Source: an uncultured Verrucomicrobia subdivision 3 bacterium
GTDB taxonomy: Bacteria > Verrucomicrobiota > Verrucomicrobiia > Limisphaerales > UBA11358
DNA: 41,040 nucleotides
NCBI GenBank assembly: GCA_903918885.1
Contig: CAIXFY010000061.1
Location: 1 to 41,040, forward strand
Direction of reading: 5' to 3'
The notes under the pieces were generated by a model. The model made no database searches. It was given only the letters and a program-made list of their open reading frames with translations, and was not told where the DNA came from. Of this stretch, positions 21,755 through 37,980 are shown piece after piece (within the stretch, counting starts at the first letter, position 1; the number at the start of each line of letters is the position of its first letter). A program made the position numbers and the translations under genes.

Positions 21755-22765
21755 CTATTTCTTCGGCGGGGCGGTGCTTTTACGTTCCACGAATTCGGCG
21801 GCGAGGCGTTTCAGTTCAATTTTTTCGCCGCGAATCAGCTTCATCATCGTTTCGATGGCGGCGGTGCCGAGCCGATGTTTGGGCTGGCTGACAGTGTCCA
21901 GCGGCACGCGGTAAAATTCCGCCGCCAGAATATTCCCGAACCCGACGATGGAAACATCCTCGGGAATTTTTATGCCCTGTTGCAGCAATGTTTCCGCGCA
22001 GCCCATGGCCACGAGATCGTTCACGGCCATGATGGCGGTCGGTTGGACGCCTTCGTTGAGCATTTGCAACGCGGCTTTGGTTCCGTCCTCGATGGTGGCA
22101 CCGGCTTGAAACACCAGTTTGTCGTCCACTTCCAAACCGGCTTCGCGCAACGCGCGGCGGTAGCCTTCGAAGCGTTCATGCGCCCACGGCGCGGCGGGCG
22201 GGCCGGTGAGGTAGGCGATTTTTTTGTGGCCGAGACCGGTGAGATGTTTCGTGGCGTTGTAACTGGCGACGAGTTCCTCGATTTCAATGGCGGGGAAATT
22301 TTTGCAGAACGGCGCGGGCGAACCGAGCAGCACGGTCGGAATGTTCCGTGCGACAATCTCCTGATAAATTCGCGCCTCGGCCTCGAAGCGATAAACCGGC
22401 GTGATGAATAGCCCGTCCACGCGGCGCGAAAGCAGACGGCGCAGCACGGCGTCCTCGCGTTCTGGCTTGTTGTAGGTGTGGGCGATGAGCAGGTCGTAGC
22501 CGAGTTCGTGGGCGCGTTCCTCGATGGCGAAAACGATGCGGGCGTAGATGGGGTTGGAAGTAGTCGGAATGACGAGGCCGAAAAGTTTGGTTGTCTTTGT
22601 CCGCAAACCCTGCGCGCTAGAGTCCGGCACGTAACCCATGTCGAACGCGAGTTTTTTAATCTTGGCCTTGGTGGCGTCGGAAACGTCCGGCTCGTCCCGC
22701 AGGGCTTTCGAGACCGTCATCACGGAGACGCCGATGATTTTGGCAATGTCTTTGAGTCGAACCAT
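21755..22765 (-). CDS. LacI-family transcriptional regulator
   Basis: This 336-residue protein has a LacI-type helix-turn-helix at the N-terminus (RLKDIAKIIGVSVMTVSKALR, residues 3-23), the hinge helix region ending SSAQGLRTKTTKLFGLVIP, and a periplasmic-binding-protein-like effector domain (about 60-330). Such proteins usually repress sugar-use operons and release DNA on binding a sugar or nucleotide. No sugar transporter or hydrolase lies nearby, so the target is unknown. It lies 105 bases downstream of nadK on the same strand, with heptamer repeats in the gap. The ATG at 22765 is fixed by the conserved DNA-binding start. Confidence 0.93.
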   Translation of the reverse strand: MVRLKDIAKIIGVSVMTVSKALRDEPDVSDATKAKIKKLAFDMGYVPDSSAQGLRTKTTKLFGLVIPTTSNPIYARIVFAIEERAHELGYDLLIAHTYNKPEREDAVLRRLLSRRVDGLFITPVYRFEAEARIYQEIVARNIPTVLLGSPAPFCKNFPAIEIEELVASYNATKHLTGLGHKKIAYLTGPPAAPWAHERFEGYRRALREAGLEVDDKLVFQAGATIEDGTKAALQMLNEGVQPTAIMAVNDLVAMGCAETLLQQGIKIPEDVSIVGFGNILAAEFYRVPLDTVSQPKHRLGTAAIETMMKLIRGEKIELKRLAAEFVERKSTAPPKK

Positions 22766-22773
22766 TTTTAGAA

Positions 22774-22801
22774 TGCAGAAGGTAGAAGGCAGAAGGCAGA
22801 A
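22774..22801 (-). repeat. Heptanucleotide tandem repeat, intergenic (nadK-lacI)
   Basis: Four consecutive 7-base units read TGCAGAA, GGTAGAA, GGCAGAA and GGCAGAA. A second short 7-base tract (TTCATTC twice, then TGACTTC) follows at 22840-22860. Both lie in the gap upstream of the LacI gene. The type resembles the short tandemly repeated heptamers known from cyanobacteria. Confidence 0.7.
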
Positions 22802-22870
22802 TAAGCAAACGGCGAAACCGGTGCGCGCAATTTTTTTTCTTCATTCTTCATTCTGACTTCTTCCTTTGGG

Positions 22871-23755
22871 TTAAAGATACGTTCCGCGCCAGTGAAGTTT
22901 CCGGCGCAAGGCTTCGAGAAACGAGCCGCTGCCCAGATGCACGAGCCGCACGGCGCTTTGGCTGCGGCGGATGGTAATCTCGTCGCCGTTCGCGAGTTCG
23001 CCGAGAATCTGGCCGTCGGCATTGAGATAAGTCGCCGGCTCGGTCTTGACGGCCTTCACGCGGATAGTCGCCGACAACGGCAAAATGATGGAACGGTTCG
23101 TGAGTGAGTGCGGAGAAATCGGTGTTAGCACAAACACTTCCGCCGTCGGCAAAACAATCGCGCCGCCAGCTGCGAGTGAATACGCCGTGGAACCGGTCGG
23201 TGAACTGACAATCAATCCGTCGCAGCGGTAGCGCGTGATGGGCTCGCCGTTGACACTGACATCCAGCGCGATGAGCCGCGAGGCGGCGCCACGGCTGATG
23301 ACGATGTCGTTGAGCGCGGTGGCTTTGATTTTTTTGCCGTGCCCAATGCCGGTGGCAGAAATCAAGGCGCGGGATTCGAGGCGAAATTTTCCCTGCCAAA
23401 GCAGTTTCAGCGCGGCGGCCAATTCGTCGCAGGGAACGGCGGTGAGAAAGCCGAGGCCACCGAGATTGACGCCGAGGATGGGCGTGCTGGAACCGGCGAT
23501 TTGCCGCGCGGTGTGCAGCATCGTGCCGTCGCCGCCGAAGACGATGAGCAAATCCACCGCGCCCGCGAGTGACGCGGCGTCGGGCAGGATTTCACATTTG
23601 ATTTTGGCGAACTGCGTGGTGATGGCGTCGCCAAAAACTTTTCGCCCGCTGCGGCGAATCAGTTGCGCAGCGGCGCGGACGCTCGCGGCGGCGGCGGGTT
23701 TTTCCGCGTTGCCGAGGAGACCAATGCGATGGAAATGTTCAACGGACTTTTTCAA
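22871..23755 (-). CDS. nadK: NAD kinase
   Basis: This 294-residue cytoplasmic enzyme phosphorylates NAD to NADP (EC 2.7.1.23). The signature GGDGTMLH (74-81) is present, followed by LGVNLGGLGFLT (94-105), the ALND substrate motif (147-150) and SPTGSTAYSLAAGG (185-198). The length is normal. The best start is a TTG at 23755, which overlaps the 3' end of tlyA by 17 bases. No ATG lies between it and the conserved region, and translation by coupling to tlyA is likely. The tlyA-nadK order is a common bacterial pairing. Confidence 0.93.
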   Translation of the reverse strand: MKKSVEHFHRIGLLGNAEKPAAAASVRAAAQLIRRSGRKVFGDAITTQFAKIKCEILPDAASLAGAVDLLIVFGGDGTMLHTARQIAGSSTPILGVNLGGLGFLTAVPCDELAAALKLLWQGKFRLESRALISATGIGHGKKIKATALNDIVISRGAASRLIALDVSVNGEPITRYRCDGLIVSSPTGSTAYSLAAGGAIVLPTAEVFVLTPISPHSLTNRSIILPLSATIRVKAVKTEPATYLNADGQILGELANGDEITIRRSQSAVRLVHLGSGSFLEALRRKLHWRGTYL

Positions 23756-27295: not shown

Positions 27296-28393
27296 ATGAA
27301 AATGCCGACTGACGCCATCCACGAAGAAATTCTTAATAGCGGCGCAATTCCTTTTGCGCGCTTCATGGAACTCTCGCTTTACTGTCCCGAAACCGGCTAC
27401 TACGAGACAAATAAAGACAACGTCGGTCGCGGCGGCGACTTCATTACCAGCGTCAGCACCGGTAGTCTCTTTGGCGAACTGCTGGCGTTTCAATTCGCGG
27501 AATGGCTCGAAGCTGAAGTCAGAAGCCAGAGGTCGGAAGTCAGAATTGTCGAAGCGGGAGCGCATGACGGCAAACTCGCGCGCGACATTTTGAACTGGCT
27601 GAAAAATTTCCGTGCGGACCTATTTACTGGAATCGAATATTGGATTATTGAGCCGTCGCCGACGCGCCAGCAATGGCAGCAGGAAACGTTAAAGCCATTT
27701 CAAAATGTCCGCTGGTTCACCGGTTTGGAAGAACTAAAACTCAAAACTCAAAACTCAAAACTTGCCGGAATTTTTTTCAGCAACGAACTACTCGATGCCT
27801 TCCCCGTCCGCCGCTTTGGCTGGGATAAAAAAAATAAAGCGTGGTTCGAGTGGGGTGTTGCGCAGGATGGTAAAACATTCAGTTGGGCAAAAATTTCGCC
27901 GACGGATTTGCCATCTGCCATCTGCCATCTGCCATCTGCACTTTTGGAAGTGTTACCCGACGGTTATGTCGTCGAAGATTCGCCCGCAGCCGAAAACTGG
28001 TGGCGCGCGGCCGCTGGCATTTTGTCGCACGGCAAATTGCTCGCCATTGACTACGGCTACACGGCGGAAGAACAATTTTCACCCACGCGAATCAAAGGAA
28101 CCCTCCGCGCCTACCATCGCCACCGTGTCAGCGATAATTTGCTCGCGAACGCCGGCGAACAGGATTTGACCGCGCACGTCAATTTCTCCGCCATCCAAAA
28201 AACTGGGGAAGCAGTTGGATTAAAAACGGAAAACTTTTGCCCGCAGCCGCAATTTCTCACCCGCATTTTGAGTTCGGCCGTGAAAGAGAAATCTTTTGCC
28301 AGTATGGACGCCAAACAAATCAGGCAATTTCAAACGCTCACGCATCCCGAACACCTTGGCCGCGCCTTCCGTGTGCTCGTTCAGTCACGCTGA
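27296..28393 (+). CDS. MidA-family SAM-dependent methyltransferase with heptamer inserts
   Basis: This 365-residue protein matches the MidA/NDUFAF7 (DUF185) family, class I methyltransferases; the mitochondrial member methylates an arginine of complex I. Hallmarks are IPFARFMELSLYCPETGYY (18-36), GRGGDFITS (45-52), VEAGAHDGKLARDIL (motif I, 85-99) and IFFSNELLDAFPVRRF (159-174). Three short low-complexity segments stand out: EVRSQRSEVR (74-83), LKLKTQNSKL (147-156) and LPSAICHLPS (205-214). Each is encoded by about four copies of a different 7-base repeat. The reading frame stays open, so the gene may still work. It is divergent from pilT (52 bases apart) and its end overlaps the end of rsmE by 13 bases. 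Confidence 0.85.
   Translation: MKMPTDAIHEEILNSGAIPFARFMELSLYCPETGYYETNKDNVGRGGDFITSVSTGSLFGELLAFQFAEWLEAEVRSQRSEVRIVEAGAHDGKLARDILNWLKNFRADLFTGIEYWIIEPSPTRQQWQQETLKPFQNVRWFTGLEELKLKTQNSKLAGIFFSNELLDAFPVRRFGWDKKNKAWFEWGVAQDGKTFSWAKISPTDLPSAICHLPSALLEVLPDGYVVEDSPAAENWWRAAAGILSHGKLLAIDYGYTAEEQFSPTRIKGTLRAYHRHRVSDNLLANAGEQDLTAHVNFSAIQKTGEAVGLKTENFCPQPQFLTRILSSAVKEKSFASMDAKQIRQFQTLTHPEHLGRAFRVLVQSR
27514..27541 (+). repeat. Heptanucleotide tract 1 within MidA-like gene
   Basis: Four degenerate 7-base units read GAAGTCA, GAAGCCA, GAGGTCG and GAAGTCA. They encode the EVRSQRSEVR segment. In a tract of heptamers the protein repeats every seven residues. Confidence 0.7.
27736..27763 (+). repeat. Heptanucleotide tract 2 within MidA-like gene
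   Basis: Three perfect AAAACTC units are followed by one AAAACTT. They encode the LKLKTQNSKL segment just before the FFSNELLDAFP motif. Confidence 0.8.
27909..27936 (+). repeat. Heptanucleotide tract 3 within MidA-like gene
   Basis: Four perfect TGCCATC units and a trailing TGC encode the LPSAICHLPS segment. All copies are identical, which suggests a recent or actively slipping tract. Confidence 0.85.
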
Positions 28394-36870: not shown

Positions 36871-37980
36871 TTATTTTCCCACGCGGCCGGTGTGCTGCGC
36901 ATTTCCACGCCATAGCGGCCAAGCACATTTCGCGGGCGGCGCGGCATTGGTCAGCGGGCGCAAGGCGTAAAGATATTGTTCGTCGGCCATATAAAACACT
37001 CCGGCTGGACTGATATTGGGCGAGCCGTGAAAGCTCATGCCCACGCTGAAATTCCACAGAAAATTTCCTTCCACGCTCATCAATCCCGACAGGGTCCCAA
37101 AGCCAATGGTGAAAATTCTGCCATTGGCCATGATGGCCGATGAACCATCCACCAGATTGTTGCCCGAAAAATGCCAGCGAATTTTGCCGTTGGGTGTGAG
37201 AGCGTAACGTTCGCCGTTGACCGCAAAATAAATGTTTCCATTTTCGTCCAAAACGGGCGACGAGGCGGTGCAGCCGCCCGTGCGCAACCGCCAGCGTTCC
37301 GTGCCGTCAGGATTTAGCGCGTAAAAATTCCCATCCGTGGAACTGAAATAAATCACGCCGCCCGCATCCAGTGTTGGTGAAGCAGTGATTTCCGCACCGG
37401 TGGCAATTTTCCATTTCAATTTCCCATCCGGAGTTAGCGCATAAAAAATCTTGTCATGTGATCCAAAATAAATCGTGCCGTCGGCCGTAATGGCAGGCGA
37501 ACTGGACACGATGTTGGTGGTGGCAAATTTCCATTTAAGCGAACCATCCGGGTTCAGTGCGTAGAAATTTTTGTCGTGTGAACCGAAATAAATCGTGCCG
37601 TCGGCCGCGATGGCGGGCGAAGAGTCCACCCACGCGCCGGTGGGGAAAGTCCACTTCAGTTTTCCCTGCGCCGTGACCGCGTAAAATTTCCGATCGCGCG
37701 AACCGAAGTAAATGGTTCCATCCGCTGCGACCGCCGGTGACGAGTTGATTTCCCGGCCAGCTTTGAATTTCCATTTCAGTCTGCCCTCCGGCGTCACCGC
37801 CACCAGCCAGCCGTGAAAAGTCGCCTGCAAAATGGTTCCGTCCGACGCTAGGGCGGGGGAGGATTTGGTTCCTTCATCTGGCAGACGGTATTGCCACAGA
37901 TTGGTCATCTCCGTTTGCGCCTGCACCCGGTCGGCAAAAGCGAGTAACACGATAAACCATGGAAGAATCCAAAATTTCAT
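36871..37980 (-). CDS. Secreted PQQ-like beta-propeller protein
   Basis: This 369-residue protein has a signal peptide (MKFWILPWFIVLLAFADRVQA) and seven or more blades of about 38 residues. Each has the pattern SSPAIAADGTIYFGSHDKNFYALNPDGSLKWKF. This is the PQQ/quinoprotein-like propeller fold. There are no dehydrogenase motifs, so it likely binds a ligand or protein in the periplasm. Blades 2-6 are so alike that the DNA carries a visible 114-120-base tandem repeat (about 37400-37800), which points to recent internal duplication. The ATG at 37980 places the signal peptide first. It is divergent from GAPDH. Confidence 0.85.
   Translation of the reverse strand: MKFWILPWFIVLLAFADRVQAQTEMTNLWQYRLPDEGTKSSPALASDGTILQATFHGWLVAVTPEGRLKWKFKAGREINSSPAVAADGTIYFGSRDRKFYAVTAQGKLKWTFPTGAWVDSSPAIAADGTIYFGSHDKNFYALNPDGSLKWKFATTNIVSSSPAITADGTIYFGSHDKIFYALTPDGKLKWKIATGAEITASPTLDAGGVIYFSSTDGNFYALNPDGTERWRLRTGGCTASSPVLDENGNIYFAVNGERYALTPNGKIRWHFSGNNLVDGSSAIMANGRIFTIGFGTLSGLMSVEGNFLWNFSVGMSFHGSPNISPAGVFYMADEQYLYALRPLTNAAPPAKCAWPLWRGNAQHTGRVGK

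Follow-up and report, generated by a model that had tools for sequence, protein, structure and literature searches.

The cyanobacterial STRR are tandem repeats of seven-base units, with a few words per genome, and are best known as fingerprinting targets between genes. Rickettsia palindromic elements, palindromes of about 100 to 150 bp, are inserted in reading frames. As later papers summarize the survey of Mrazek et al. (2007, via PMC4679880 and PMC4692102), in many bacteria heptanucleotides outnumber all other long simple repeats, and the contact length of the polymerase has been suggested as the cause. They have been on record as such since 2007, without an accepted mechanism. The STRR are cited as the heptanucleotides of Calothrix (PMC4692102).

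Here, we describe short heptamer arrays in a MidA-type methyltransferase gene of a verrucomicrobium and in its relatives. The tandem seven-base unit is that of the cyanobacterial STRR; the phylum differs, and probably the words. As with the Rickettsia elements, repeated DNA is tolerated in frame in conserved proteins, here in the form of heptamer arrays. In some genomes, the Mfd and DinG loops that carry arrays elsewhere hold palindromes, which is nearer to the Rickettsia case. As far as the summaries of the Mrazek-type repeats go, both cases share a seven-base unit favored over other lengths, genome-wide and in many words, whereas the present arrays cluster at set loops within conserved coding genes and the words are interchangeable across a genus. 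GGGNATC of Xanthomonas and Nostoc is likewise dispersed; its arrays often have about four units and vary in sequence and length among relatives (PMC4692102). However, it is one G-rich word, underrepresented in coding regions, with a four-unit preference ascribed to quadruplexes (PMC4692102), whereas the arrays here occupy coding loops in many words. The words found here lack G-tracts, and therefore the quadruplex explanation does not apply. TAACTGA of Beggiatoaceae is also a tandem heptamer, repeated two to six times; one genome has it in abundance, and it recurs in distant lineages (PMC4679880). Unlike here, it is a single word, mostly intergenic upstream of genes, and related heptamers are rarely repeated (PMC4679880).

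A search of the openly licensed literature returned no account of such arrays in genes of Verrucomicrobiota. What sets the present case apart is the combination of short arrays and interchangeable words at set positions, the same loops of conserved genes throughout a genus. One conserved gene in some 47 species provides a natural series, with the same loop, the same unit length, and different words, so that strain pairs could directly tell copied words from locally arisen ones. Frame-breaking repeats in housekeeping genes are also a case of how such repeats persist, and genes put out of frame by one lost unit are relevant to the annotation of metagenome-assembled genomes.

Three heptamer tracts in one methyltransferase gene

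The window, the whole stretch of 41,040 nucleotides that was analyzed, makes up all of contig 61; the genome comprises 2.46 Mb in 85 contigs. The host is a verrucomicrobium of the Limisphaerales rather than a cyanobacterium. Its relatives are metagenome-assembled genomes of Limisphaerales (Verrucomicrobia subdivision 3); a search for a second assembly of the host's species found none. The product of the gene has both the PF02636 domain (Table 1) and the MidA fold. A structure model built on 32 homologues (mean pLDDT, 91) was matched best by the solved structures of MidA (5ztz and 5zu0) and COG1565 (4g67 and 4f3n), at TM scores of 0.79 to 0.82. The human protein NDUFAF7 methylates arginine in an NDUFS2-type subunit (PMC3829151).

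An earlier note on this DNA had reported three different heptamer tracts in this gene, and all three are present, with small corrections. The TGCCATC tract is perfect and runs to 27939. The AAAACTC tract has a perfect 7-base period over 27736-27762 (27 nt); the last base of the fourth unit given earlier is mismatched. The GAAGTCA tract had been started one base early, at 27514, and its units are imperfect (GAAGTCA, GAAGCCA, GAGGTCG, and GAAGTCA; 75% matches). The encoded peptides EVRSQRSEVR, LKLKTQNSKL, and LPSAICHLPS had been read correctly. Within 425 nt, this one gene holds two perfect runs of 18 nt or more and, in addition, a degenerate tract. In the structure model, all three lie in connecting segments (surface loops) between secondary-structure elements. 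No inverted partner of these tracts was found within 120 nt (best, 10/14); they are tandem heptamers, not palindromes.

Table 1. Features of the window (positions count from its first letter)
Feature	Position	Strand	Description
MidA/NDUFAF7-type methyltransferase gene	27296-28393	+	365 codons, one ORF; PF02636 E 2e-55
Loop 1 tract, GAAGTCA word	27515-27545	+	4.4 units, degenerate; between helix 58-76 and strand 82-87 (model)
Loop 2 tract, AAAACTC word	27732-27762	+	one indel allowed; between strands 138-141 and 156-163 (model)
Loop 3 tract, TGCCATC word	27909-27939	+	4.43 perfect units; between strand 194-200 and helix 214-219 (model)
LacI-type regulator ORF	21755-22765	-	
Heptamer array with inverted partner	22770-22854		reverse-complementary partner array within 120 nt
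NAD-kinase-like ORF	22871-23755	-	
120-bp tandem repeat	37393-37643		two copies, 72-80% matches

The tracts belong to a genome rich in such repeats. In 358 kb sampled from the window's genome, 13 period-7 runs of at least 18 nt were counted, compared with 0.4 in dinucleotide shuffles; this rules out a chance origin of the tracts and shows that 7-base tracts are overrepresented genome-wide, one of the checks that the earlier note had named. Each of the other nontriplet periods from 4 to 13 gave 0 to 1 runs in the same 358 kb. The background was drawn from genome samples (324 to 387 kb per genome) and pattern searches. Two relatives had 14 runs in 324 kb (G021) and 3 runs in 333 kb (G040). Perfect arrays reached 0.57 per kb in MidA, compared with 13 over the 358 kb sampled from the genome, a ratio biased upward because MidA was chosen for having arrays. 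G096, a genome of another family, had 8 period-7 runs in 387 kb, five of them with the word TCCGCAC (L153:14665-16105, L157, and L144), and as many period-8 runs. Three of its TCCGCAC arrays lie inside one 1068-aa ORF, and two of these are flanked by one and the same peptide, GGRPQGPLRTPHSAL, which hints at the copying of a longer unit.

Periodic loops in congeneric homologues

A MidA homologue was found in 46 of the 49 congeneric genomes, and in many of them the three loops have a 7-base periodicity, as perfect or decayed arrays. Among 45 congeneric homologues, identity at lag 7 was 0.575, 0.413, and 0.483 in loops 1, 2, and 3, respectively, compared with 0.245 elsewhere in the gene and 0.25 to 0.28 in 22 outgroup genes of other families. 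In the loops, lag-7 identity was as high as lag-21 identity, and thus the period exists at the DNA level. Of the perfect MidA arrays, 26 could be located on the alignment, and every one of them fell in the three loops. A perfect array was present in 17 of 47 MidA genes, and most congeners carry decayed arrays. One outgroup homologue (L075) has arrays in loops 1 and 2. The words of the homologues include ATTGCGG, ATTGCCG, AGTCCAC, and AAAACTC in loop 1; CAACCTT, CAACTCT, and GCATCAG in loop 2; and AGAATTC, CAGAGTT, CAATCCG, AACCTTC, and TTCAGCC in loop 3. Longer repeats of the type CCCTCGCCCC...GGGGAGAGGG also occur in frame in MidA loop 3 (L054, L057, and L029) and in Mfd (L267).

The earlier note had taken the tracts for insertions, which is partly right. 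Repeat-free homologues do not have the same residues at these positions; the note had named shared residues there as a refutation of its reading. The DinG-like helicase of the window's genome contains a clear insertion: a 32-nt AGAAGTC array sits in a loop 39 nt longer than in the relative G030, where the same loop is short and free of arrays. In MidA, simple insertion was not supported as the general rule, since outgroup loops of similar length already exist (median lengths in genus and outgroup, 10 versus 8, 17 versus 12.5, and 16 versus 19 aa for loops 1, 2, and 3). Judged from the aligned homologues, the MidA loops were probably mostly overwritten.

The same pattern was seen in other genes. 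In congeners, the DinG loop holds the words TTCAACC, GCAACCA, or CTCGACC, or a palindrome, and in Mfd, arrays, some of them decayed, lie near residues 90, 140, 260, 340, 490, and 1000. Pooling MidA, DinG, and Mfd gave 71 perfect arrays of at least 18 nt in 121 genes, with a maximum length of 37 nt.

Word turnover and the origin of the arrays

Sister genomes can carry unrelated words at one loop. The MidA tree was built without the loop columns, and many of its within-genus branches are weakly supported; the first three clades named below had SH-aLRT values of 92 to 98. In loop 3, L037 has AATTCAG and L040 has AACCTTC; in loop 1, L024 has AATTGCG and L026 has AAGTCAG. L057 carries AACCCTC, compared with AGTCCAC and AGTCCAT in L051 and L054, and the sister genomes L045, L056, and L050 also differ in word at one loop. 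Words also recur in different loops: L040 has TTCAACC in both loop 2 and loop 3, L039 combines ATTGCGG in loop 1 with the reverse complement of that word in loop 3, and AAAACTC, the loop-2 word of the window gene, is found in loop 1 of L055.

Some of these words are abundant in the genomes that carry them. The TTCAACC carrier G015 has 17 arrays of that word outside MidA, the highest number among the 49 genomes. ATTGCGG arrays numbered 15, 12, 5, and 1 in the carriers G048, G021, G018, and G011, respectively, compared with a mean of 0.76 in noncarriers (Mann-Whitney p 9e-4, a value not corrected for kinship). For AAGTCAG, the abundance test gave a p value of 0.05. These three words were tested formally; AATTCAG, AAAACTC, and TGCCATC were judged by eye. 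Reversed words gave a fair control for TTCAACC and AAGTCAG alone: AAAACTC read backward is merely rotated, and reversed ATTGCGG and AATTCAG have stops on both strands. In a sample of 236 genomes of the class, ATTGCGG arrays turned up in 17. Two distant class members have long perfect ATTGCGG arrays of at least 15 units (G156:C24:9777-9881 and G205:C24:14672-14769), in contrast to the short arrays of the genus.

The unrelated words in sisters, the occurrence of one word at many sites of some genomes, and the like arrays in DinG and Mfd indicate a spreading process, as the earlier note had suspected. From these comparisons we lean, with some confidence, toward the reading that heptamer words disperse and slip genome-wide and that stop-free, in-frame copies survive in permissive loops. 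The tracts would then be members of a larger stock of short tandem heptamer arrays throughout the genome. A small vocabulary of seven-base words would be copied to other sites in one orientation or the other, and each array would lengthen, shorten, or give way, through slippage or the arrival of another word. In conserved genes, purifying selection would leave copies only in permissive loops (three in MidA, one in DinG, and several in Mfd), where the sense strand is free of stops and the net length keeps the frame; they would later decay by point mutation or be replaced. We infer a copying step, such as a switch of template from one array to another in the course of repair, with the loops serving as neutral ground. 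The arrays would need no function in the enzyme.

Several results count against dispersal. Carriers of AATTCAG and AAAACTC among the congeneric genomes showed no clear enrichment of their own word, and TGCCATC was found at no other site of the window's genome than MidA. The MidA loops are not clearly longer than those of outgroups, and no direct copying event was seen in the comparisons, all of which were between species.

Local replication slippage alone, in which the polymerase slips preferentially by seven bases and amplifies native loop sequence with no copying between sites, fits the general prevalence of heptanucleotides and the proposed seven-base polymerase contact, as summarized in PMC4679880 and PMC4692102, and two frame-broken alleles described below differ from their relatives by exactly one unit. 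However, word usage is far from random: the 71 pooled arrays comprise 36 distinct words, compared with 68 expected from random stop-free words. In addition, one word recurs across loops, genes, and orientations of a single genome and in the class at large. We therefore consider slippage alone unlikely.

Concerted evolution, in which ancestral arrays of the genus undergo point mutation followed by homogenization within the array, would account for a period that is present or decayed at the same loops in most of the genus. It also fits the kinship of the words, which the dispersal reading can claim as well: 31 of the 36 words have a one-letter neighbor (18.7 expected), and the loop 3 words TTCAGAG, TTCAGAA, TTCAGCC, and TTCAACC have a common core. 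The wholly different words of the sister pairs L024/L026 and L037/L040 argue against it, as does the DinG array of the window's genome opposite the array-free loop of G030, and we regard it as quite improbable. Both slippage and concerted evolution may act together with dispersal. A further reading to which we give equally little credence is that an undescribed activity writes or transplants 7-base units, with a vocabulary shared across the class, and rewrites fixed hotspots in conserved genes; it could be a templated polymerase, a reverse transcriptase, or a repair pathway with a seven-base register.

Reading frame and palindromic neighbors

Seven is not a multiple of three, and thus two of every three unconstrained arrays would disrupt the frame. 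Among the 71 perfect arrays, the frame was broken at 2, compared with the two-thirds expected without selection; the binomial value of 1e-30 is a guide only, as arrays of related genomes are not independent. A stop occurred on the sense strand in 1 of the 71 arrays and on the antisense strand in 29. Compared with the in-frame form found in a relative of another species, each of the two frame-broken alleles lacks exactly one 7-base unit. MidA loop 3 of G018 has three TNCCATC units, compared with four in G030, and Mfd of G041 has 68 nt near residue 490, compared with 75 nt in G035. These alleles come from consensus assemblies and could contain errors; arrays of 24 to 28 nt are well inside read length. 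A frame break in Mfd of G006 was set aside, as it sits at an assembly gap (NN).

The earlier note had also proposed that the gene could be switched on and off by gain or loss of a unit. Where one unit is missing, the frame is indeed broken, as in G018 MidA and G041 Mfd. However, the MidA frame is unbroken in 45 of the 46 genomes with a homologue (one consensus genome per species), and most congeners have decayed arrays, not the uninterrupted ones that a contingency locus needs; decay by substitution destroys the switch. The genes concerned are housekeeping genes, not surface structures. An on/off switch is thus possible and unsupported by species-level data, and programmed phase variation as the reason why the tracts are kept seems very unlikely. 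Under the dispersal reading, the hypermutable frame would be a side effect, since a gene that gains or loses a single unit is broken. Selection for useful heptad peptides is hardly credible: it can point to a pattern at the loop end (for example, LPSAL, NSEL, or PSAL ahead of the conserved LxxVLPD), but it predicts DNA identity at lag 21, not the equally strong identity at lag 7, and there is wide variation among the peptides, with no such period in outgroups.

Palindromic elements were seen in Mfd and DinG loops that hold heptamer arrays in other genomes (L229, L265, and L274). The Mfd palindrome of the window's genome (L229, G000:C27:49699-53088) is GGTAGGGCGGGCAGTCC...GACGCGCCCTACC, and the DinG palindrome of G003 is GTAGGACAGGCGTCGCGCC...GGCGCGACGCCTGTCCTAC. 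By sequence, these look like REP-type elements inserted in frame. In L205, L207, and L224, the DinG loop contains two inverted heptamer stretches (e.g., GTTGAAG units with CTTCAAC units downstream), arranged as an in-frame hairpin.

Other heptamer arrays are hairpin-forming, with a reverse-complementary partner array. In the window, one lies between the NAD-kinase-like and LacI-type regulator ORFs (Table 1), and similar pairs were seen at L101:4814-4909, L108:18992-19066, L115:13751-13827, and L004:9492-9560. A partner array (12/14 bases or better, within 120 nt) accompanied 9 of 32 sampled arrays, compared with 6 of 371 with other words. Such pairs could act as terminators. The window also contains a 120-bp tandem repeat (Table 1), whose length is divisible by three and which may thus encode a repeated protein segment.
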